Source of the DNA: Methanolinea sp.
GTDB lineage: Archaea; Halobacteriota; Methanomicrobia; Methanomicrobiales; Methanospirillaceae
Assembly (NCBI GenBank): GCA_018262855.1
Contig: JADFDO010000011.1
Coordinates: 1-64,000 of the forward strand
Direction of reading: 5' to 3'
DNA length: 64,000 nt
This document shows positions 44,828 through 61,085 of the stretch, piece after piece. The notes beneath the pieces are model-generated. The model saw only the letters and a program-made list of their open reading frames with translations, did not search any database and was not told the origin of the DNA. How positions within the stretch are numbered: position 1 is the first letter of the stretch; each line of letters begins with the position of its first letter. The translations under genes were made by a program, and so were the position numbers.

Positions 44828-45184
44828 CACCACCTCTTTCCGCCCGAAAATTCAAATACCTTTTCTTGATTACGAAAAAAGTCGCAGTGACGGGATTTTT
44901 TATTCGAATAAGGAAGAAAGGACGTCAGTTTCAACCCAAATGACCGGATTCCTGTTATTGAAAAGCATCCAATCCGGGAAAAATCCTGCAATTCGTGTCA
45001 AGAATCCTTTCCGACATATATCACAATGAATATATCATTTCTTCGTTATAACCCAAGTCAGATATAGATCATGAACATCAATCAGGGCATCATACGACAT
45101 TCATCCGAATTGCAGATGTATGCCGGTTGTGTTCTGTGTTTTCCTTCCATTCTTATACAATGAGGGGGGGGGAATTTGAGAGAA
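44828..45184. other. Divergent promoter region between SIMPL copy 2 and the giant surface protein
   Basis: No gene is evident. Several AT-rich TATA-like stretches occur (for example ATTTTTTATTCGAATAAG near 44897 and CATATATCACAATGAATA near 45015), and GGGGGGGG lies about 10 bp before the ATG at 45185. I cannot assign a single promoter. Confidence 0.35.
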
Positions 45185-48100
45185 ATGAAATCATTGCAAA
45201 TATTGAACGGGATTCTTCTTCTTGCCTGTGCACTGCTTGCTACCAGCGCAAGTGCGATCCCCTTTGCATATATCACGAATTCTGGAGACAACACGGTCTC
45301 TGTGATTGATCCCTCTGCAGATATGGCCATCGCAACGGTGGGTGTAGGACAGAAACCGTATGGGGTTGCCGGCAGTCCGGATGGAAAAACGGTGTATGTG
45401 ACAAACTATCCATTGGTAATTACCAATCCCGGCACGGTCTCTGTCATTGATACCGCAATCAACACTGTAATTGCGACAGTGACTGTAGGATGCTGGCCTC
45501 ATGGAATTGCGGTAAGCCCCGATGGAACACGGGTGTACGTGGCAAACCAGTGGGACAACACCGTTTCTGTGATCGATACTGCGACACACGGCGTGACCAG
45601 AACAGTAGGTGTAGGGGAAGATCCTTATGGAGTTGCAGTCAGCCCGGATGGAACAAGGGTGTATGTGACACGATCAGGGGTTGACAAAGTCTCTGTGATT
45701 GATACCGCTGCCCTCACTGTTCTCTATGACATAAGCGTAGGAGACAATCCGAAAGGAATTGCAGTCAGCCCGGATGGAACAAGGCTATACGTGGGAAACG
45801 AGGGCACTGAGTGGAACGGCAACGACACAGTCTCTGTGATTGATACCGCCACACATACCGTGATTGCAACAGCGTATATTGGTGAAGGGCCCCGGGGAGT
45901 TGCAGTCAGCCCGGATGGAACAAGAGTCTACGTGGCTAATTATTTTTCCGACGCCGTCTACGTGATTGATACCGCCACATATTCCGTGATCGATGCGATA
46001 AGTGTGGGTGATGCACCGTATGGAGTTTCGGTTACCCGGGATGGGACGATGGTGTATGTGGCAAACTCCGGGAGCAATAATGTCTACGTGATCGATACCG
46101 CCACACACACCGTGATCTACAGGATGAACACAGGAACCACCCCAATCGCATTTGGGAATTGTATCGGGAGCCTCCCTCCCAAGATAACATGCATCTTCCC
46201 GGCATCCGGCGCATTACATGGCGGCACGTCAGTGTTCATCACCGGGGCCAACTTTTACGGAGTCACCTCAGTGACCTTTGGTGGCCAGCCAGCTACGTCG
46301 TTCACGGTTGACAATGCGACACATATTACCGCGATTGCACCTGTACACGAAGCCGGCCCTGTAGATGTGGTGGTCACGACACCGGAAGGATCAGTGACCA
46401 GGACCCAGGGATATTCCTATGCACCACTCGCAAAAATTGTTACTCTCTCTCCTTCATCCGGCACATTCTATGGCGGCACATCAGTGACAATTACCGGAAC
46501 CAACTTTGACGGAACCAGCTCAGTGACCTTTGGTGGTCAGCCAGCTACCTCGTTTGTGGTTGACAATGCGTCGAAGATCACCGCGACGACTCCCGTGCAT
46601 GTTCCCGGTCCTGTAGATGTGGTGGTCACCACGCCAGGTGGTTCGGCAACCAGGGCCAACGGGTATACCTATGTCAACTCCGGATTACCGGTCATCAAAA
46701 GCATCTCCCCAACATCCGGCACCATAGATGGCGGCACGTCAGTGTTCATCACCGGAAGTAACCTGAACTGGGCGAGTTCGGTCACCTTTGGTGGTCAGCC
46801 AGCCACCTCGTTTGTGGTTGACAGTGCATCGCAGATCACTGCTGTCATACCGGCGCATGCACCCGGTCCTGTAGATGTGGTGGTCACGACACCGGCCGGC
46901 TCGGGAACCCGCACATACGCGTTCACGTATATTACACCGATGGGGCCGTCATATGCCTACATCTCGAATTCGTGGGACGATTACGTGTCAGTCATTGATG
47001 TCGACTCAAACGCACCGGTCGCCTCGGTCGGGGTGGGAGACTATCCGGATGGTGTTGCTGTGAACCCAGATGGAACGTGGGTGTATGTGGCAAACAGCCT
47101 GAGCAACACGGTCTCCGTCATTGACACCGCCACAAATGCTGTGGCTGCCACGATACCGGTGGGATTGGATCCTTCCGGAGTTGCTGCAAGCCCTGATGGG
47201 ACAAGGGTGTACGTAGCGAACTATGGTGGCAACGATATCTCCGTTATTGATACCAGTACAAATTCTGTTATCGCTACGGTGGAAGTTGGAGGAAATCCCC
47301 GTGGAGTCGCAGTCACTCCAGATGGTAAAAAGGTCTATGTGGCAAACCAGGCCAGCAGCTATGTCACGGTGATTGATGCGGTTACACACAGTGTGATCAC
47401 TACCGTGTATTCAGGAGGTGCTCCTTATGGAGTTACAATCAGCCCGGATGGTACAAGGGTCTATGTGGCAACCATGTGGGCCAACACTGTGTCTGTGATT
47501 GACACTGGTACAGATACTGTGGTAGCCACGGTGCCTGTGGGCAACTATCCCTATGGTGTTGCAGTCAGCCCCGATGGATCGAGGGTGTTCGTGGCAAACG
47601 GAAACGCAGTAAATTCAAATCCCACCCCCTCGGTTTCTGTAATTGATACCGCCACGAATGCTGTGATAGCGACGATACCTGTGGGATCATGGCCTTTTGG
47701 CGTCGCAGTTACTCCGGATGGAACAAAGGTGTTTGTGGCAAACGCAGGAAGCAACAGCGTCTCTGTGATTGATATTGTGACAAATTCTGTTATTGACTCG
47801 ATTGGTGTTGGGAACTTTCCCTCAGTATACGGGAATTTCATTGGGAACCTGCCGCTCCCCAAGATCAAATTCATCACCCCGATGTACGGCACAACCCTTG
47901 GCGGAACTACCGTTGTTATCACCGGGACAGGATTCTCAAGGGCAAGTTCAGTCACTTTCGGGGGTATTCCGGCCACCTCAATCACCGTTGACAGTGACAC
48001 GCAGATCACCGCGGTTGCACCAGCACATGAAGCCTCCCAGGTAGATGTAGTGGTTACGACCCCGTATGGCTCGGTGACAAGGAAACAATCGTATACCTAC

Positions 48101-49762
48101 CGGGAACAGCCCCACCCCACGCCGACAATCGGTTCTCCGCCGGTAGGATCGACGGTTGAGCCAACTCCAACGTCTGCAGGTGGCTCTCTCCAGGCTGATT
48201 TCACCGCTTCAAGCACATCAGGTGTTGCCCCCTTCACTGTGTTATTCCAGGATACCTCGCAGGGGAATCCGACCGGTTGGAACTGGGATATTAACGGTGA
48301 CGGGTTCAAGGATTACGATGGGAGCACCTGTGAACATACGTTCACTGAACCCGGCACTTACACGGTTTCACTCTCAGTGACAAGGGATGGAGAGCTCGAC
48401 AGCGTTATCCGAGCTGACTATATCCAGGCATTAGGGGAAATTCCTTTTCCACAGATTATCCTTATACCTATGCATCCGGGCTGGAACTTTATCTCTTTCC
48501 CACAAAAACTTGTAGAAGGACACCGGACCGCTGGTGAAGTGTTCAGTGGTGTGGACACAGGGGGACACGCGATTTACTGGTATGATGCATCATATCAGAC
48601 CTGGAATCAGGTGAATCCCCTCGATTCTCTTGACCCCTTCAAGGGATACTGGATTTATTCTGTTTCATCAGCACAGATCCCGCTCACCTTTTACGTAAAT
48701 CCACCGATGGAACAGACAGTCGTGCTGCAGCCGGGATGGAACGCAATCGGATTTGCCTTCGAATACTCTGCACGGGAAGGGTTGTATTCCGTGAAGGACG
48801 CCTGGACCCAGTTGATCGGGTATGACAGCGAATCCCAGATGTACGAGACCTCGATTGTCAACGGTGGTTCGGGAGCCCACAGCATTTTGAATTTCGTGAT
48901 TCCAGGAAAGGGATACTGGGTGTTCATGAGTGAGGGAGGGGCGTTGTCCTTCTCCATCTATCCCCTGGAAACAGATTTTCCGATCGTAGATGAGTCCTAT
49001 CCTGTCTACAGGACTATCATTCCCAACCTCACCAATCAGGAGATACAACAACTCGGTGCTCTTTTCGGGGTGTCCGGAGAAGTCGAAGATTTCATTCCTT
49101 CATCGGGAATCTCCAGGATTACTGATTATTCGAGAGATCCTTATGCAATTTTTGAATTTAATCGCAATTCAGGGGCATACAGGTACCTGATTCCTGACAT
49201 GGTATTTCCAGCCTCAACCGGTATCCAACCGGACCTTCCATCCGATGAAGAGGCACGGATCATTGCGACAGAGTACCTCCAGGAAAGGGATCTTTTCCCT
49301 GCCGATCTGCACTTCAGTGGTGTCAGCATCGGATCATCGTCCGGGGAATATTCCGCGGAATCTCAGATTGTCTTTGTTCTCACCAAGCATATTGGTTTCA
49401 CGAGGGAGATCGCTGGCATTCCGGTATACAATACTGGCATCACAGTCACCATCGGGGAGGGTGGGGAGGTGGTGGGAGTCACGAATACTGTACGTCACTA
49501 TGACCCTGTTCCTGTCCGGTATATGAAAATTCGTACACCAGCGCAGGCGTACGAGCAGCTCCGTGCAGACGACCTCATCATGCGGCCATTATGCTGCACC
49601 AGTTATTTTGCAGTCAGGAACATCTCGCTCGGTTACTGTATTGAGGATACGGTCAGCACAGAGGAATACATGCTGCCAGTCTATGCATTTGCATGCCATG
49701 AACCATCCGGTACTGAGGATATTACCCTGTTTGTGTGGGCGGTGGACCCGTCTGATGTGTAA
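45185..49762 (+). CDS. Giant surface protein: two YVTN beta-propellers, IPT/TIG, PKD and GWN domains
   Basis: This 1525-residue protein has a signal peptide (~1-25) and a first YVTN propeller (~25-325) of ~42-residue repeats with VYVAN, VSVIDTAT and VAVSPDGTRV. Three IPT/TIG domains (~328-583; SGTFYGGTSVTITGTNF), a second propeller (~589-893), a fourth IPT (~892-975) and a PKD domain (~1003-1082) follow. A GWN region (~1098-1258) matches the protein at 6554. The C-terminal ~265 residues are unassigned. There is no C-terminal membrane anchor. It is probably a surface or matrix protein. ATG 45185 gives the best signal peptide. Confidence 0.88.
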   Translation: MKSLQILNGILLLACALLATSASAIPFAYITNSGDNTVSVIDPSADMAIATVGVGQKPYGVAGSPDGKTVYVTNYPLVITNPGTVSVIDTAINTVIATVTVGCWPHGIAVSPDGTRVYVANQWDNTVSVIDTATHGVTRTVGVGEDPYGVAVSPDGTRVYVTRSGVDKVSVIDTAALTVLYDISVGDNPKGIAVSPDGTRLYVGNEGTEWNGNDTVSVIDTATHTVIATAYIGEGPRGVAVSPDGTRVYVANYFSDAVYVIDTATYSVIDAISVGDAPYGVSVTRDGTMVYVANSGSNNVYVIDTATHTVIYRMNTGTTPIAFGNCIGSLPPKITCIFPASGALHGGTSVFITGANFYGVTSVTFGGQPATSFTVDNATHITAIAPVHEAGPVDVVVTTPEGSVTRTQGYSYAPLAKIVTLSPSSGTFYGGTSVTITGTNFDGTSSVTFGGQPATSFVVDNASKITATTPVHVPGPVDVVVTTPGGSATRANGYTYVNSGLPVIKSISPTSGTIDGGTSVFITGSNLNWASSVTFGGQPATSFVVDSASQITAVIPAHAPGPVDVVVTTPAGSGTRTYAFTYITPMGPSYAYISNSWDDYVSVIDVDSNAPVASVGVGDYPDGVAVNPDGTWVYVANSLSNTVSVIDTATNAVAATIPVGLDPSGVAASPDGTRVYVANYGGNDISVIDTSTNSVIATVEVGGNPRGVAVTPDGKKVYVANQASSYVTVIDAVTHSVITTVYSGGAPYGVTISPDGTRVYVATMWANTVSVIDTGTDTVVATVPVGNYPYGVAVSPDGSRVFVANGNAVNSNPTPSVSVIDTATNAVIATIPVGSWPFGVAVTPDGTKVFVANAGSNSVSVIDIVTNSVIDSIGVGNFPSVYGNFIGNLPLPKIKFITPMYGTTLGGTTVVITGTGFSRASSVTFGGIPATSITVDSDTQITAVAPAHEASQVDVVVTTPYGSVTRKQSYTYREQPHPTPTIGSPPVGSTVEPTPTSAGGSLQADFTASSTSGVAPFTVLFQDTSQGNPTGWNWDINGDGFKDYDGSTCEHTFTEPGTYTVSLSVTRDGELDSVIRADYIQALGEIPFPQIILIPMHPGWNFISFPQKLVEGHRTAGEVFSGVDTGGHAIYWYDASYQTWNQVNPLDSLDPFKGYWIYSVSSAQIPLTFYVNPPMEQTVVLQPGWNAIGFAFEYSAREGLYSVKDAWTQLIGYDSESQMYETSIVNGGSGAHSILNFVIPGKGYWVFMSEGGALSFSIYPLETDFPIVDESYPVYRTIIPNLTNQEIQQLGALFGVSGEVEDFIPSSGISRITDYSRDPYAIFEFNRNSGAYRYLIPDMVFPASTGIQPDLPSDEEARIIATEYLQERDLFPADLHFSGVSIGSSSGEYSAESQIVFVLTKHIGFTREIAGIPVYNTGITVTIGEGGEVVGVTNTVRHYDPVPVRYMKIRTPAQAYEQLRADDLIMRPLCCTSYFAVRNISLGYCIEDTVSTEEYMLPVYAFACHEPSGTEDITLFVWAVDPSDV

Positions 49763-53552: not shown

Positions 53553-54008
53553 TTACGCCGTCATCCGGTCCGCAGCCTCAGAGGAACAATACGATGAGAG
53601 CGGCATCGAGAAGTCCGTGATCGTGTGATCCCTGGCAGCCTCTTGGTATGGTGCTGCGGGAAGCTCCATGATGCGGGCGAACCGCTCCCGGTAGTTGAGC
53701 ACTTCGACAAGGGAGTCAAGGGAGAGCGTGAACCGGTCGCCATTCACGAGATCGATATTGAGCGCCTTTCCCGAGCGCGAGACCTGGGCATTCCCCGCCT
53801 TTCCACCGAGATACTCCATCCAGTTCTGTTTGATCCGGACGACAGCCGCCGGAGTTCCACGCTGGATGGCTCCCTTCACCTCGTCGATGAGTATGCAGAG
53901 CCTCGCCCCGAATATTGTGAGCTCGAGGACTTCGCGTGGGGTCCCGTCACTGTCGAGGACTTTCTTTCCATCCCTGGTAAGGTATCCTGCTCTTTGCATC
54001 TCACTCAC
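53553..54008 (-). CDS. Uncharacterised 151-residue protein
   Basis: I do not recognise a family. The protein is soluble, with no signal or membrane segment. It has LTRDGKKVLDSDGTPREVLELTIFGARLCILIDEVKGAIQ in the first half and strands such as SGKALNIDLVNGDRFTLSLDSLVEVL in the middle, so an alpha/beta or beta-barrel fold is likely. The C-terminal ~35 residues are low in structure. Codon use is like its neighbours. ATG 53999 is an alternative start. Confidence 0.6.
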   Translation of the reverse strand: MSEMQRAGYLTRDGKKVLDSDGTPREVLELTIFGARLCILIDEVKGAIQRGTPAAVVRIKQNWMEYLGGKAGNAQVSRSGKALNIDLVNGDRFTLSLDSLVEVLNYRERFARIMELPAAPYQEAARDHTITDFSMPLSSYCSSEAADRMTA

Positions 54009-54108: not shown

Positions 54109-54265
54109 ATGAACATGGCAAAGCCATTTTGATATTCACTGCCTGTGACAGACAAGTGGTCGAACTTTTCGAATGAACATGGCAAAGCCATTTTGATACT
54201 CACTGCCTGTGACTGACAAGTGGTCGAACTTTTCGAATGAACATGGCAAAGCCATTTTCATAGTG
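54109..54265. repeat. 64 bp tandem hairpin-repeat array, three units
   Basis: ATGAACATGGCAAAGCCATTTT begins at 54109, 54173 and 54237, exactly 64 bp apart. The stem ATGGC/GCCAT surrounds an AAA loop. Units 1 and 2 differ at only two positions over 64 bp; unit 3 stops after TTTTCATAGTGAAAAA. The array lies 25 bp beyond the stop of the nitrogenase-like K gene. The spacer block GACAAGTGGTCGAACTT is alignable with TAAGTAGTCGAAATT in the array at 10431. Confidence 0.8.
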
Positions 54266-54289: not shown

Positions 54290-55435
54290 TCAGGATACTT
54301 TCTGATGATCGATGCATGCGTTTAAGACCGATTCCATGAGGGCGAGGGCTCCCTCGATCCCGGCGAGCGGCCTTGCATGCAGCCTCACCTGGCCCCGTAA
54401 CGGCGGAGTGACCCCGACGAACGCTGCGGATGGGAATGCAGTCTGCTCAAACGAAGATCCGAGCACGAGGTCTGGTGCCTGCTGTTCGAGCATCTCCCTG
54501 ATCCCTTCATAATCCCTGACCCATCTTGAAGGATACTTCCCTTCGACCGGGACGTTTCTCGACGCGATATCCAGGATCTCGGCATCAAGGTATTCTATAA
54601 GCATGCCGGCAACCGCCTGCATTGAAGCATCCTGCCCGGAAAGGACAACCGTTGGTGGTTCAAACCTTCGTAAGTATTTGTCGCAGGCAGCATTGATCCG
54701 CTCCTCCGCAAGAGGGAGATGCCGTCCGGAGAGAACGCCTCCGCTGTCCGGGAACCTGTCTTCGAGTGCCCTGACAGTCTCCCGCATCGCTTCCATCCCG
54801 AGCATCGATCCGAATGACGATCCCCGCCCAGAGATGAGATCGGGATTCGTATGGACCGTCCATGGTGCAATATCAGTGTCGTTCCCCGCATCACCTGAGC
54901 AAAGCGGAACCCCGCAGCATGCTCCTGCCAGCCGGAGCATCCGTGCTATCTCCTGCAGGTTTCCTCTCCAGAAAGGGTCCAAGAGTGAGAGCCCGTCAAT
55001 GTTGACATGGTCCTGCATCGCTTCTGACTCAGGGAGGGTGAGGGCCGAGAGGGCTGATAGGTATCCCTTCTCGTACTCGCCGGAAAATCCCGGCGAATCG
55101 ATTACTTGGACCATCAGATCATCCCCGTAGCGTGCCTCGAGCGATGCCCGGACATCCTCGCCTATGATTGATGGGACGCATGAGAGGATCACGAAGATAT
55201 CCCGGTAATTCTTCGAGATGTCGTCGATCGTCCGGAACAATGCCTCGTCAGTCCCGAGTATGATATCCTCATCCGAAAGAGAGGTACAGAAGAGGGGGGC
55301 GTGGAGGGTGGTCACCGGGTAGAAATAGCACCCTTCGGATCCGTGGATCACCACACCTATCTCCTGAAATCCCGAGAGACAGGCTGCTGCCCCGGTAAGC
55401 CCGCATGGCCAGAGCGGCCCGGCACACTCAGGCAT
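54290..55435 (-). CDS. Nitrogenase-like component 1 protein, K-type
   Basis: This 381-residue protein has a NifD/K/E/N-type layout with cluster cysteines C11 (PCGLTGAAA), C36 (GSEGCYFYP) and C86 (LSCVPSIIGEDV). It has later sections VVIHGSEG, DPFWRGNLQEIARML and PPTVVLSGQDASMQAVAGMLIEYL, typical of the second Rossmann-like domain. ATG 55435 overlaps the D-like stop by eight bases. It completes an overlapping H-D-K operon and would form a heterotetramer with the D-like subunit. It does not show the conserved nitrogenase FeMo-cofactor ligand motifs. Its substrate is unknown. Confidence 0.75.
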   Translation of the reverse strand: MPECAGPLWPCGLTGAAACLSGFQEIGVVIHGSEGCYFYPVTTLHAPLFCTSLSDEDIILGTDEALFRTIDDISKNYRDIFVILSCVPSIIGEDVRASLEARYGDDLMVQVIDSPGFSGEYEKGYLSALSALTLPESEAMQDHVNIDGLSLLDPFWRGNLQEIARMLRLAGACCGVPLCSGDAGNDTDIAPWTVHTNPDLISGRGSSFGSMLGMEAMRETVRALEDRFPDSGGVLSGRHLPLAEERINAACDKYLRRFEPPTVVLSGQDASMQAVAGMLIEYLDAEILDIASRNVPVEGKYPSRWVRDYEGIREMLEQQAPDLVLGSSFEQTAFPSAAFVGVTPPLRGQVRLHARPLAGIEGALALMESVLNACIDHQKVS

Positions 55436-56447
55436 GGCAGCCTCTCTTCCACCGGTGAAGCAGCCTCCGGATCCCGTTCGTGCCGACCGGGAACGGGTCC
55501 GGTACCGGGACAGGATTCCCCTCTTCGTGCACTTCGAGGTCGAAGAGATCGGCAAGCTCGTACCCGAGGCGCGATGACCCGTCGGCCGGGTACTGGGTGC
55601 TGAACCTGACCCGCTTTCCTTTCAGCGACGAGAAGGTCCGAACCATCTCGTGCTGGAGGGCTTCTTCGTTTGCGATGGCATGAGAAGTCTCAATGGAGAG
55701 TGCCTCCCCCACCTCTTCCATGAACCGAAGCGTCCCTTCGATCCCGAGCGGGAACGATTCGATGAAGGGAATTCCAAGGTCATCCTCAAGCGATCTCCCC
55801 AGCGGAACCATAGAGGGGTCCCGGAGGATATTCAGGGAAGCATTCCCGAGGCGCCGTATCTCCGGGACAGAGGTTGCACACACGAACCGGGCATTGACAG
55901 GAACTCCCATGGACTGCAGGATCCGTGATACTTCGCGGAAATGCTCGGAAACCTCGTATTCCAGGGTCTTCTCTCCGATGAGGTTGACGGACAGGGCCTT
56001 CTCCCCGTTCGCTGCGAGGCGGGAGAGTGCCCGGAGAGCTTCCATGTGGCCCGAAAGAAACCCGCCGCCAAGGAATCCACCCGTGGGAATATGGAGGACC
56101 GGAGTCGTCCGGGGCACATGGCAGATCGCCTCCACATCGTCACCGATCGTTGCGGCAACACACGTCGAGAGGACGCAGACGATCTCGGGATGGTGCGAGA
56201 GCGCCTGGAGAAGGGTCTCCTCGAGCAGCGGTTCGCCGCCGAAGATGACCTCCTTCTCGGACATGTCTGTCGAGATGAGGGCGGGGGGAGCCACACGGTC
56301 CCTGGCAGCGTGGAGTGCATGGAGAAGTGAGAAGTTATGGTGGGCGCACCCTGCAGGTCCGTGGATGATCGTTGCGCAGTCCCTGATCTCGGTCGTGACA
56401 GAGAGCGCCCCTGTCAGCGTGCACCCATCATCACGTGGAGTAGGCAT
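55428..56447 (-). CDS. Nitrogenase-like component 1 protein, D-type
   Basis: This 339-residue protein has C9 ([10 protein letters not shown]), C34 ([11 protein letters not shown]) and C96 ([13 protein letters not shown]), the three cysteines expected for an Fe-S cluster ligand set in NifD/E-like and CfbD-like proteins. A later segment, [15 protein letters not shown], then [23 protein letters not shown], follows the family pattern. It is shorter than nitrogenase NifD. ATG 56447 overlaps the NifH-like gene stop by 17 bases. I would expect it to bind a substrate other than N2. CfbD is one candidate identity. Confidence 0.78.
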
Positions 56448-57246
56448 ATGCAAGGTCTTCCAGGTCTTCCATCTCAAGCGGCGTGGGAATATCCAGCCTT
56501 CGGTTCTCCATGATCTTTTCTGCGAGTTCGCGGTAGACCCCGGCCTGGCGGGAATCAGGAGTAAACTGGATCACGGTCTTCCTGTTCAGCTCCGACTGCT
56601 GGACCACCTGGTCTCTCGGGATGAACTGGATCATGGAACTCCCTATCTTTTCAGAGAACTCCGCAACAAGCTCTTCTTCCCGGGGGAGGTTCTTCGCATT
56701 GCAGATCACGCCACCGAGGCGGCACCGGCTTCGTGCCCGTGACGAGAGCCTTGATATCGCTTTGCAGATGTTGTTTGCGGCATAGAGCGACATCAGCTCC
56801 CCCGAGGTGACGAGGTAGACCTCTTCCGCGTACCCCTCGCGCATGGGCATTGCAAAACCCCCGCAGACCACATCGCCGAGGACATCGTAGACCACGACGT
56901 CCGCGGAAAGCGCCCCGAGCCGCTCCAGGATCTGGAATGTCGCGATAATCCCCCGGCCGGCACACCCTACCCCCGGCTCAGGACCTCCTGCTTCCACGCA
57001 CCGGACGCCATTAAATCCCCGGAATACCACCTCGTCAAGGCTCAGAGCCCGATCGCCCCTCTCCCGGACAAGGTCCATGACCGTCGGGATGAGGGTCCCC
57101 TGCATCAGCATCCTGGTGCTGTCCCTCTTCGGGTCGCACCCGATCTGAAGGACATCAAGGCCTTGCTGGGAGAGTGCGGCAGAGAGGTTTGCGGACGTGG
57201 TTGACTTCCCGATCCCGCCTTTCCCGTACAGGGCGATCTGTTTCAT
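56431..57246 (-). CDS. NifH/CfbC-like iron protein (nitrogenase-like reductase)
   Basis: This 271-residue ATP-dependent reductase has the P-loop GKGGIGKST (8-16), cluster cysteines C95 and C128 (GVGCAGRGI and [10 protein letters not shown]), and Arg98 (the site modified by ADP-ribosylation in some NifH). The C-terminal part [14 protein letters not shown] is typical. It delivers electrons to the two component-1 proteins encoded right after it. No nifB, nifE/N or NifI genes are in the window, so nitrogen fixation is unlikely. CfbC, which reduces Ni-sirohydrochlorin diamide for F430, is a known relative. Confidence 0.85.
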
Positions 57247-58852: not shown

Positions 58853-59809
58853 TCAATCGAGCATGAGCCGGTGGGAGATGATCCGCCAGCAGACGATCAT
58901 CTGCATGATATCGGTCGGGGTGAGGAGCGGGCACGTGGGGATGAGCGATGAAGGATCGATCCCCGTCTGCTCGCGGAGGCGCGAGAAGAGTTCCTTCGCG
59001 GCATCGCACGGGAATCCCCCGTCGAGCTCAATCCTTCCCATGTGGTGCCCCGCATTCCCGACAGGCATGTACTCAACAGAATAAGGCCTCCTGTGCCCGG
59101 ATATGACCGATCCGATGTCAAAGTTCATCCACACCTTCTCGTGCATCTCCGGGAGAGGCGCAATGGTGAGGGAGACCCGGTAGATATTCTCGTTCCACCC
59201 GAGCTTCCTCCCAAATCGTGAGAAGGAGATCCCGATGATTGCCTGGGCGTGCTCCCTCTGCGGGGCGACAAAGGCGAGGTAATCCGGCTCGCGGATCGCC
59301 ATCTCCCTCCTGACCTCCTGCTCGGTATACCCGCGGCTTCCCATGTCCCGCTTCAACTTCCATTCACGCTTTACATCCGGGGATGGGTCGACGAAGAACG
59401 AGAAATCCAAAAGATCCCGGAGTCCCGGCGTGCTGAGTGGGTGCAGACCCTCGAGGATGATGACTTTTGCCGGTGAAAAAGAGACCGGTCCCTCGATGGT
59501 TCCGGTCCCATGGTTGTACCGCATCTTCTCGATGCTCCCACCCTGTTTCAGCATCCGGACATCCCGCTCGAGCCGGGCAATATCGTTTGCAGCGGGATTG
59601 AGCGGGGTGATCTGAAGCGAGTTCCGCTGCTCCCGATCATAGCGGTGGTAATCATCAAGCGAGATCGTCGAGACGAGGTCCTCGCCCAGCATGTTCCGAA
59701 GGCCTGCGGTAAACGTGCTCTTCCCGGATCCGGAATCCCCTGCAACACCGATGATATAGACACGCTTCGATTCTGAGAGGAACTTCCGAAAATCCCTATC
59801 GTTGCTCAT
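58853..59809 (-). CDS. prk: Phosphoribulokinase, archaeal type
   Basis: This 318-residue kinase has the P-loop GDSGSGKST (24-32), SLDDYHRYDREQRNSLQ, and YNHGTGTIEGP, all typical of phosphoribulokinase rather than uridine kinase. Archaeal PRK makes ribulose 1,5-bisphosphate in the reductive hexulose-phosphate pathway described for Methanospirillum-type methanogens. RuBisCO is not in the window. ATG 59809 gives the expected N-terminus. It follows the FprA gene but has a separate gap of about 80 bp. Confidence 0.88.
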   Translation of the reverse strand: MSNDRDFRKFLSESKRVYIIGVAGDSGSGKSTFTAGLRNMLGEDLVSTISLDDYHRYDREQRNSLQITPLNPAANDIARLERDVRMLKQGGSIEKMRYNHGTGTIEGPVSFSPAKVIILEGLHPLSTPGLRDLLDFSFFVDPSPDVKREWKLKRDMGSRGYTEQEVRREMAIREPDYLAFVAPQREHAQAIIGISFSRFGRKLGWNENIYRVSLTIAPLPEMHEKVWMNFDIGSVISGHRRPYSVEYMPVGNAGHHMGRIELDGGFPCDAAKELFSRLREQTGIDPSSLIPTCPLLTPTDIMQMIVCWRIISHRLMLD

Positions 59810-59891
59810 ACAGAACCTCCTGATATCCTGCAATCAAGCCCGGAATCCAGCAGGATTGGTATACCGGAAAGAGGAGGAGGGTGTCCCTTCA

Positions 59892-61085
59892 TCAACCCTT
59901 ACCGAGGATCCCGATCTCCCTGTGCTTTGCGGCAATTCGGTCCGCGAGGACCTCGATGCTTCTCATATCCTGGGCTCCAGGGGCACCCTTGATGTAGACC
60001 GGCTCGAGCAGTTCGGCCTGCATCCTTGGGAGCATCCCTTTCAGCGTCTCGACCGTCTTTCCGCCCCACCCGTAGGAGCCGATGACAGTGATGAACCTGG
60101 TCTTCGGGCGCAGCAGGTTTGCGAGGTACGCGGCGTAGACAGCCTGGGGATGGGGCCCGAAGATGACCGTCGGGGTCCCGACCACGATGGTGGCGGCATC
60201 GACAAGCGCCATCGCAAGGTCGCCAATATCGGTCACAACCAGGTTGAAGGGAAGGACCCTGATGCCACGTTCCCGGAGCGCGTCTGTGAGGTGGTTCACC
60301 ATCTTCTCGGTGCTCCCGTGCATGCTGACGTACGGGATTACGACTTCGTTCTTGACCGTATCTGAGGTCCAGTCCCGGTATGCATCCATGATCAGGCGGG
60401 GTTCTGTGTGGATCGGGCCGTGGCTTGGGGCGATCATGCGGATATCAAGGGTGCCCACCTTCTCGAGGTTCTCCCGGACCGATGATCGGAACGGCATCAT
60501 GATCTCGGCATAGTAGCGTTTCGAGGCGCGGTAGATCTCGCCCCATTCGACGACACGAAGCGTGCTCTCCGAGTAGTGGGACCCGAAGAAATCGCAGGAG
60601 AAGAGGACCCGGTCTTCCCGGGCGAAGGTGACCATCGTTTCAGGCCAGTGGACCCAGGGCGTGAGGATGAACTCGAGCGTCTTTCCACCAAGGTCGATCG
60701 TGTCGCGGTCCTTGATCACCATGCACCGTTCCTCCTCGATATCCAGGAGATGCTTCACCTGGTCAAGGCACTTGTCGTTGACCACGATCTTTGCTCCGGG
60801 GAAGATCTCCGCAATCATGGGAAGGGTTCCGGAATGGTCCTGTTCTGCGTGGTTGATGATGATGTAGTCGACCGTATCGACCTTCGCCTTTACAAGGTTG
60901 GTCACGAGCTCGAGTTCCTTGGCCGGGTCCACCGTATCGATGAGCGCGGTCTTTGTCTTCCCCCGGACAAGGTAGGCATTGTAGCTGGTACCCTGTGGGA
61001 GCGGGATCAGTGAATCAAAGAGGCGCCTGTCGTGGTCAAGCGCTCCTACCGAGAATATTCCGGGTGCTATCTCCTGGACAACCAT
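59892..61085 (-). CDS. fprA: A-type flavoprotein (FprA/F420H2 oxidase family)
   Basis: This 397-residue flavodiiron protein reduces O2 to water, with electrons from F420H2 in methanogens. The beta-lactamase-like domain (~1-250) has H79-x-E81-x-D83-H84 (NHAEQDHSG), WVHWPETM and CDFFGSH. The flavodoxin domain (~255-395) has YVSMHGSTEKMV and VGTPTVIFGP, GSYGWGGKT. It is nine bases downstream of the rubredoxin gene, a likely electron carrier. It serves oxygen defence. Confidence 0.93.
   Translation of the reverse strand: MVVQEIAPGIFSVGALDHDRRLFDSLIPLPQGTSYNAYLVRGKTKTALIDTVDPAKELELVTNLVKAKVDTVDYIIINHAEQDHSGTLPMIAEIFPGAKIVVNDKCLDQVKHLLDIEEERCMVIKDRDTIDLGGKTLEFILTPWVHWPETMVTFAREDRVLFSCDFFGSHYSESTLRVVEWGEIYRASKRYYAEIMMPFRSSVRENLEKVGTLDIRMIAPSHGPIHTEPRLIMDAYRDWTSDTVKNEVVIPYVSMHGSTEKMVNHLTDALRERGIRVLPFNLVVTDIGDLAMALVDAATIVVGTPTVIFGPHPQAVYAAYLANLLRPKTRFITVIGSYGWGGKTVETLKGMLPRMQAELLEPVYIKGAPGAQDMRSIEVLADRIAAKHREIGILGKG

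Follow-up and report, generated by a model that had tools for sequence, protein, structure and literature searches.

We report an overlapping three-gene operon, kept nearly throughout the methanogen order Methanomicrobiales, whose NifH-like iron protein (H) is almost certainly the electron-delivering partner of CfbD in F430 synthesis, judged by elimination from gene content, and whose two component-1-like proteins (D and K) form, by sequence criteria, a separate enzyme that is neither CfbD, NifDK, NifEN nor DPOR. Almost all methane of biological origin is formed with F430 as the cofactor. On balance, we lean slightly towards one H serving both CfbD and a P-cluster-type, FeMoco-free D-K heterotetramer that would reduce an anionic tetrapyrrole. 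More tentatively, the operon could encode a nearly order-wide third nitrogenase-like tetrapyrrole reductase beside DPOR/COR and CfbCD, in which a P-cluster-bearing, FeMoco-free D-K would draw on the iron protein of F430 synthesis to modify or repair a ring of the F430 or cobamide type. The gene structure and its conservation, the sole-reductase status of H, the natural loss of D-K, the ligand pattern and the sister group of D were all computed.

Structure and distribution of the H-D-K operon

The operon lies on the reverse strand of the window, that is, the whole 64,000-nt stretch of DNA analysed here, and comprises the following features.

56431..57246 (-): H, 271 aa, a NifH/CfbC-type ATP-dependent iron protein and the proposed shared reductase
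55428..56447 (-): D, 339 aa, component-1 alpha-like, with three P-cluster-type cysteines and a reduced C-terminal domain
54290..55435 (-): K, 381 aa, component-1 beta-like, with three P-cluster-type cysteines
55821..55823 (-): codon of D Arg209, which replaces the FeMoco/L-cluster ligand Cys275
53553..54008 (-): conserved neighbour without a Pfam match, family not assigned

An earlier note on this DNA had described H, D and K as overlapping in order and carrying named cysteines, and its positions, lengths and cysteines were all correct. The open reading frames and their translations place the overlaps at 17 nt (H-D) and 8 nt (D-K). Of the loci sampled, 31 of 34 preserve the former and 27 of 33 the latter; the architecture is not down to chance. 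H retains an intact P-loop and the cluster cysteines C95 and C128, invariant across sampled orthologues, while C9, C34 and C96 of D and C11, C36 and C86 of K were invariant in 34/34 and 33/33 sequences. H matched Pfam Fer4_NifH with 365 bits, and D and K matched Oxidored_nitro (PF00148) with 214 and 113 bits. Measured against the nearest relative of the window, a metagenome-assembled genome named Methanolinea sp. (G071, locus L124), dN/dS was 0.06 for H, 0.15 for D and 0.12 for K, and the operon is under purifying selection. Identity to sampled orthologues was 68-93% for H and mostly 35-76% for D and K.

A clear D orthologue (E below 1e-50) was present in about 177 of 199 genomes of Methanomicrobiales, spanning 37 genera, where the 199 genomes are those of the same class, all from this one order, and 177 is a hand count from the D search listing. 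In a phylum-wide search, orthologues scored 398-503 bits and all other matches fell below 194 bits, with no D orthologue found outside the order. All 80 named loci that were retrieved came from Methanomicrobiales, including Methanolinea, Methanoregula, Methanoculleus, Methanofollis and other genera, or from uncultured relatives labelled only Euryarchaeota. In the Methanoculleus family, K is separated from D yet retained.

The constant neighbours of the operon are a TrkH transporter, a phosphoribulokinase, an FprA-like protein and a 150-aa family without assignment. Within the window, a phosphoribulokinase-family gene (58853-59833) and an FprA-like flavodiiron protein gene (59892-61085), both identified by Pfam, are frequent neighbours of H in many genera and persist where D-K has been lost, with no evident functional link. 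No clear pathway came out when function was sought from the neighbours (TrkH, phosphoribulokinase, FprA-like and a homoaconitase-type leuCDB), and no corrinoid, chelatase or other tetrapyrrole gene was seen within about 7 kb of the operon. The gene at 53553..54008 directly follows H in genomes without D-K and thus shows where the D-K unit ends on the side away from H. Just downstream of K, a direct repeat of ~66 bp (aacatggcaaagccattttgat...cgaacttttcgaatg) was seen by eye at 54115-54260, with two or more copies and a further partial copy. A predicted surface protein of 1528 aa with repeated beta-propeller-like (YVTN) and IPT/TIG-like segments, likewise recognised by eye, occupies 45176-49762. 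As the earlier note had stated, the 64,000-nt window contained no nifEN-like or nifB gene; the NifB of this genome lies on a different contig from the operon.

Identity and active site of D and K

The earlier note had separated D from CfbD, and both score and phylogeny bear this out. Against the CfbD model TIGR03282, D reached only 41.4 bits with a cut-off of 268.4, and in a component-1 tree of 94 sequences, from which COR (BchXYZ) and MarDK were left out, it formed its own clade (100/100) far from CfbD. A second CfbD is thereby ruled out, the true CfbD of this genome scoring 493 bits on another contig. The note had also reasoned that a D nested inside CfbD, in a genome without a second copy, would reduce the operon to F430 synthesis; D is not so nested by tree or score, and the F430 connection comes through H, by elimination the reductase component of that pathway. 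The best sequence-profile match of both D and K was NifE, far below all curated cut-offs, and all six component-1 places that the genome contains fell well short of the NifD, NifK, NifE and NifN cut-offs. Nitrogen fixation is ruled out by the absence of FeMoco ligands and nifEN.

The closest relative of D proved to be the D half of H-D fusion proteins, to which it is sister (99/98), and K grouped weakly (83/30) with their K-like partner. Such loci (L120:6491-9945 and L232-L246, for example L235:1864-10886) encode an H-D fusion of about 730-800 aa and a K-like protein in genomes named, by inference, as Methanosarcina-like and Methanospirillum-like. In varying sets they carry CbiZ (PF01955), CbiK (PF06180), CobN/Mg-chelatase (PF02514) and ChlI- or ChlD-like proteins, along with a periplasmic-binding-protein ABC transporter of corrinoid or iron type. 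This setting is one of corrinoid or tetrapyrrole salvage, making the fusion and its K-like partner a candidate nitrogenase-like enzyme of corrinoid salvage. The fusions share Arg187 with D and lack FeMoco ligands, but they join H and D in one chain, their K has Asp/Cys/Pro in place of the three cysteines, and they are encoded among corrinoid and chelatase genes, which the H-D-K operon is not. The fusion is no simple replacement of D-K, as two genomes (G057, G153) have both and two (G024, G115) have neither. A nifH-nifE fusion is mentioned as data not shown in Dos Santos 2012 (PMC3464626).

D differs from nitrogenase in the column of the FeMoco/L-cluster cysteine. This residue is Cys in NifD, in NifE (4/4) and in two other nitrogenase-like groups of the same genome, but Arg209 in D (11/11, and invariant in all aligned D), a match to Cys275 given by two independent alignments, including a HMMER alignment to solved NifE. 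At His442, D has a gap in 11/11, the region being absent because domain III is reduced. CfbD has Lys at the Cys275 column in every sampled sequence, and at the position of D Arg187 every fusion has Arg and every CfbD has Lys; as the CfbD part of the alignment is uncertain, the Lys matches are suggestive only. Consistent with the claim of the earlier note that the component-1 proteins are shorter than true Nif proteins, D is roughly 120-150 residues shorter than its nitrogenase counterpart.

Predicted models were confident (pLDDT 90 for D and 93.5 for K). By TM-score, the K model was closest to BchB of DPOR (0.83), and the D model gave 0.76 to BchB with bound substrate and 0.74 to NifEN; by E-value, the closest fold to K was NifN. 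Like DPOR (BchLNB), the predicted assembly would pair an iron protein with a FeMoco-free heterotetramer, but the DPOR cluster is held by three Cys of BchN and an Asp of BchB where K has three Cys, and D and K fall far below the BchN and BchB cut-offs. To our knowledge, chlorophyll synthesis is not expected in these archaea. D-K shares its 3+3 P-cluster cysteines with NifDK and its best profile match with NifEN, from which it differs by the missing Cys275 and His442 and the shorter D. MarHDK likewise has a P-cluster-type cysteine set and an H-D-K gene set; MarD, however, keeps the cluster-binding cysteine that is Arg209 in D, and MarDK holds an [Fe8S9C] cluster by this active-site cysteine (PMC12552129). 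Nitrogenase-like clades with three Cys per subunit and no FeMoco ligands, Archaea included, are described in Dos Santos 2012 (PMC3464626), and D-K fits the ligand pattern given there; it is therefore not a new category of protein, proteins of this pattern having been recorded in 2012. The passages of that survey on these clades draw no link to a shared reductase, to genus-level loss or to CfbD (PMC3464626).

H as the probable iron protein of CfbD

H scored 425.2 bits against NCBIfam F430_CfbC (NF033200; cut-off 402) and also 395.8 bits against NCBIfam nifH (cut-off 394.35). The true CfbD of the genome is encoded on contig C22 between cfbE and cfbB (493 bits, cut-off 268), with no cfbC beside it, and none of the Methanomicrobiales cfb operons examined has CfbC adjoining CfbD, in contrast to other families of the phylum. 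A protein above the CfbC cut-off was found in 34 of 43 genomes of the order, with an H orthologue in 34/34; in the remaining nine, the H orthologue fell slightly below the cut-off or the assembly was fragmentary. Ten high-quality genomes of other genera, several of them closed (G001, G003, G006, G010, G013, G015, G031, G043, G065 and G075), have H as their only NifH-family protein, alongside three or more component-1 proteins: CfbD, D and K. The genome of the window has a second NifH-like protein, on contig C7. Thus, to the question raised by the earlier note of which related genes lie elsewhere in the genome, the answer is cfbD, this NifH-like gene and NifB; no second cfbC was found.

Natural losses of D-K narrow the partner of H further. 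D-K is absent from three genera (g5, g12 and g13). Two genomes without it, G024 (99% complete) and G115 (96%), encode a single NifH-family protein, H, together with a single component-1 protein, CfbD, and so does G129 (85% complete); mcrA is present in G024 and G115. In these two and in two further g12 genomes there is a clean D-K gap between H and the 150-aa family, which flanks H on one side with FprA-like, phosphoribulokinase or TrkH on the other. Given that only H and CfbD remain of the nitrogenase family in such genomes, H must, by elimination, serve CfbD, and H as a private reductase of D-K is ruled out by the genomes that have H but no D-K. Literature searches found no paper treating cfbC in Methanomicrobiales. 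In the genome of the window, mcrA was seen only as two end fragments (contigs C24:2769-3011 and C8:26741-27052), probably an assembly break rather than an absence.

It is very unlikely that some unrelated donor reduces CfbD while H works only with D-K, a view that could draw on H being sister to NifH (94/94) rather than to the CfbD-adjacent CfbC of other orders, because G024, G115 and G129 keep H with CfbD as its sole component-1 partner and the examined cfb operons of the order lack CfbC beside CfbD. The affinity to NifH nevertheless counts against the reading of H as the CfbD partner and bears on the ancestry of H. In an iron-protein tree of 71 sequences, the H orthologues formed one clade (95/93) joined to NifH, and CfbC adjoining CfbD in other families formed a separate clade (100/99), although a single clade of H and CfbC was not rejected (AU p = 0.164), so that the closeness to NifH is non-significant. 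H could be either a cfbC that moved and evolved or a NifH-type protein that took the place of CfbC; the tree leans towards the latter without deciding between them.

Compared with CfbCD, the operon shares an iron protein over the CfbC cut-off that is the only candidate reductase for CfbD, and CfbD has Lys where D has Arg209; in the tree, however, the homodimeric CfbD stands well apart from both D and K. In seven genomes, representing six genera of one family, cfbD and the operon are 10-16 kb apart, a linkage that may be a single inherited event. Since H would be common to CfbD and D-K, the operon is not a stand-alone reductase but is tied to F430 synthesis; the "different reductase" of the earlier note survives as the D-K pair and not as an independent operon. 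It also follows that the cfbC-annotated gene of these methanogens heads an operon with a second enzyme, and that data from its deletion or expression are not readable in terms of F430 alone.

Proposed function of D-K

We propose that H, standing in for CfbC, donates electrons to the homodimeric CfbD, encoded elsewhere, for F430, and that it also serves D-K, for which we infer the cluster type, subunit stoichiometry, substrate class and reaction direction. H would hydrolyse ATP, and electrons would leave its [4Fe-4S] cluster for one of P-cluster-like type, which D and K would each ligate with three cysteines where the two subunits meet. From there they would pass straight to an organic substrate bound in the cavity that holds FeMoco in nitrogenase and that in D-K is predicted to be empty of a metal cluster, with the cysteine ligand replaced by the invariant Arg and domain III cut down. 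The pocket appears to be lined by conserved arginines and would fit an acidic ring-shaped substrate, the likeliest being a metal-containing, acidic tetrapyrrole of the same type as F430 or the cobamides. Like DPOR, COR and CfbCD, D-K would reduce a C=C or C=N bond in this substrate. The assignment to tetrapyrroles draws on the setting of the sister clade, the reductase shared with CfbD, the basic residues, the DPOR-like fold and the proximity of cfbD. Against it, no tetrapyrrole gene adjoins the operon, the grouping of K with the fusion partners is weak, the 3+3 cysteines of D and K follow the nitrogenase and MarDK pattern whereas DPOR and CfbD use [4Fe-4S] clusters, and the best profile match, NifE, is a scaffold.

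Three other functions for D-K were weighed, each of them unlikely. Were D-K a reductase of a non-tetrapyrrole such as a sulfur compound, an alkyl thioether or another small molecule, in the manner of MarHDK or NflHDK, the 3+3 cysteine pattern of MarDK and the detectable similarity to its solved chains would be explained; yet the active-site cluster cysteine of MarDK is Arg in D, no sulfur-metabolism neighbours were seen at the operon loci and the sister clade of D sits in corrinoid gene clusters. The sulfur substrate considered in the earlier note thus finds no support here. Equally improbable is a non-catalytic helper of CfbD or H that would buffer electrons, store the substrate or product of CfbD, or regulate the common iron protein. 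Such a role would accord with the common reductase, the reduced third domain of D and the three genera that keep CfbD (and mcrA where tested) without D-K, but genomes in which K no longer adjoins D still retain both subunits, and every cluster ligand is invariant in D and K across the order, which argues for redox work.

A small probability also attaches to D-K as a NifEN-like scaffold that matures or delivers the NifB-made [8Fe-9S-C] L-cluster, for instance to the MCR activation complex, with H assisting as NifH does NifEN. Three L-clusters are found in that complex (PMC12176620), the tested genomes encode NifB, NifE is the top profile match of D and K, and the K fold is nearest to NifN by E-value. 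However, the L-cluster cysteine of NifE is an invariant Arg in D, every MCR user needs activated MCR and yet genomes without D-K exist, and the phylum-wide search returned no D orthologue outside the order.

Returning to the tetrapyrrole reductase that we favour, the absence of D-K from three genera suggests that its product is useful but not essential for methanogenesis, and the genomes that lost D-K are ready-made comparison strains. F430 biosynthetic enzymes are regarded as the likely origin of nitrogenase. Combining the F430 iron protein and P-cluster ligands with no FeMoco, D-K would give concrete form to an intermediate between the CfbD and NifDK kinds of machinery.

Further nitrogenase-like loci were observed in this and related genomes. 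On contig C7 of the same genome, a second cluster in D-K-H order (L009:7141-10752, minus strand), whose D keeps the Cys275 ligand, adjoins two AMP-binding acyl-CoA-synthetase-like genes and has relatives in G008, G020 and G199. A D-like protein that stands alone as a single subunit, and has Cys275 as well as three P-cluster cysteines, occurs in the same genome (L007:4139-5317), near ThiF- and ThiS-like genes, and also in G001 (L254:2927-4117), L255 and L256; in G001 it ends a run of cfbE, cfbD, cfbB, an aminotransferase-like gene and the lone D. This protein may act in F430 modification or cluster carriage. Additional distinct H/D/K sets, placed in neither the Nif nor the CfbD groups, were found at L247 (G007) and L248 (G034), and in G007 two D-K pairs surround one H.
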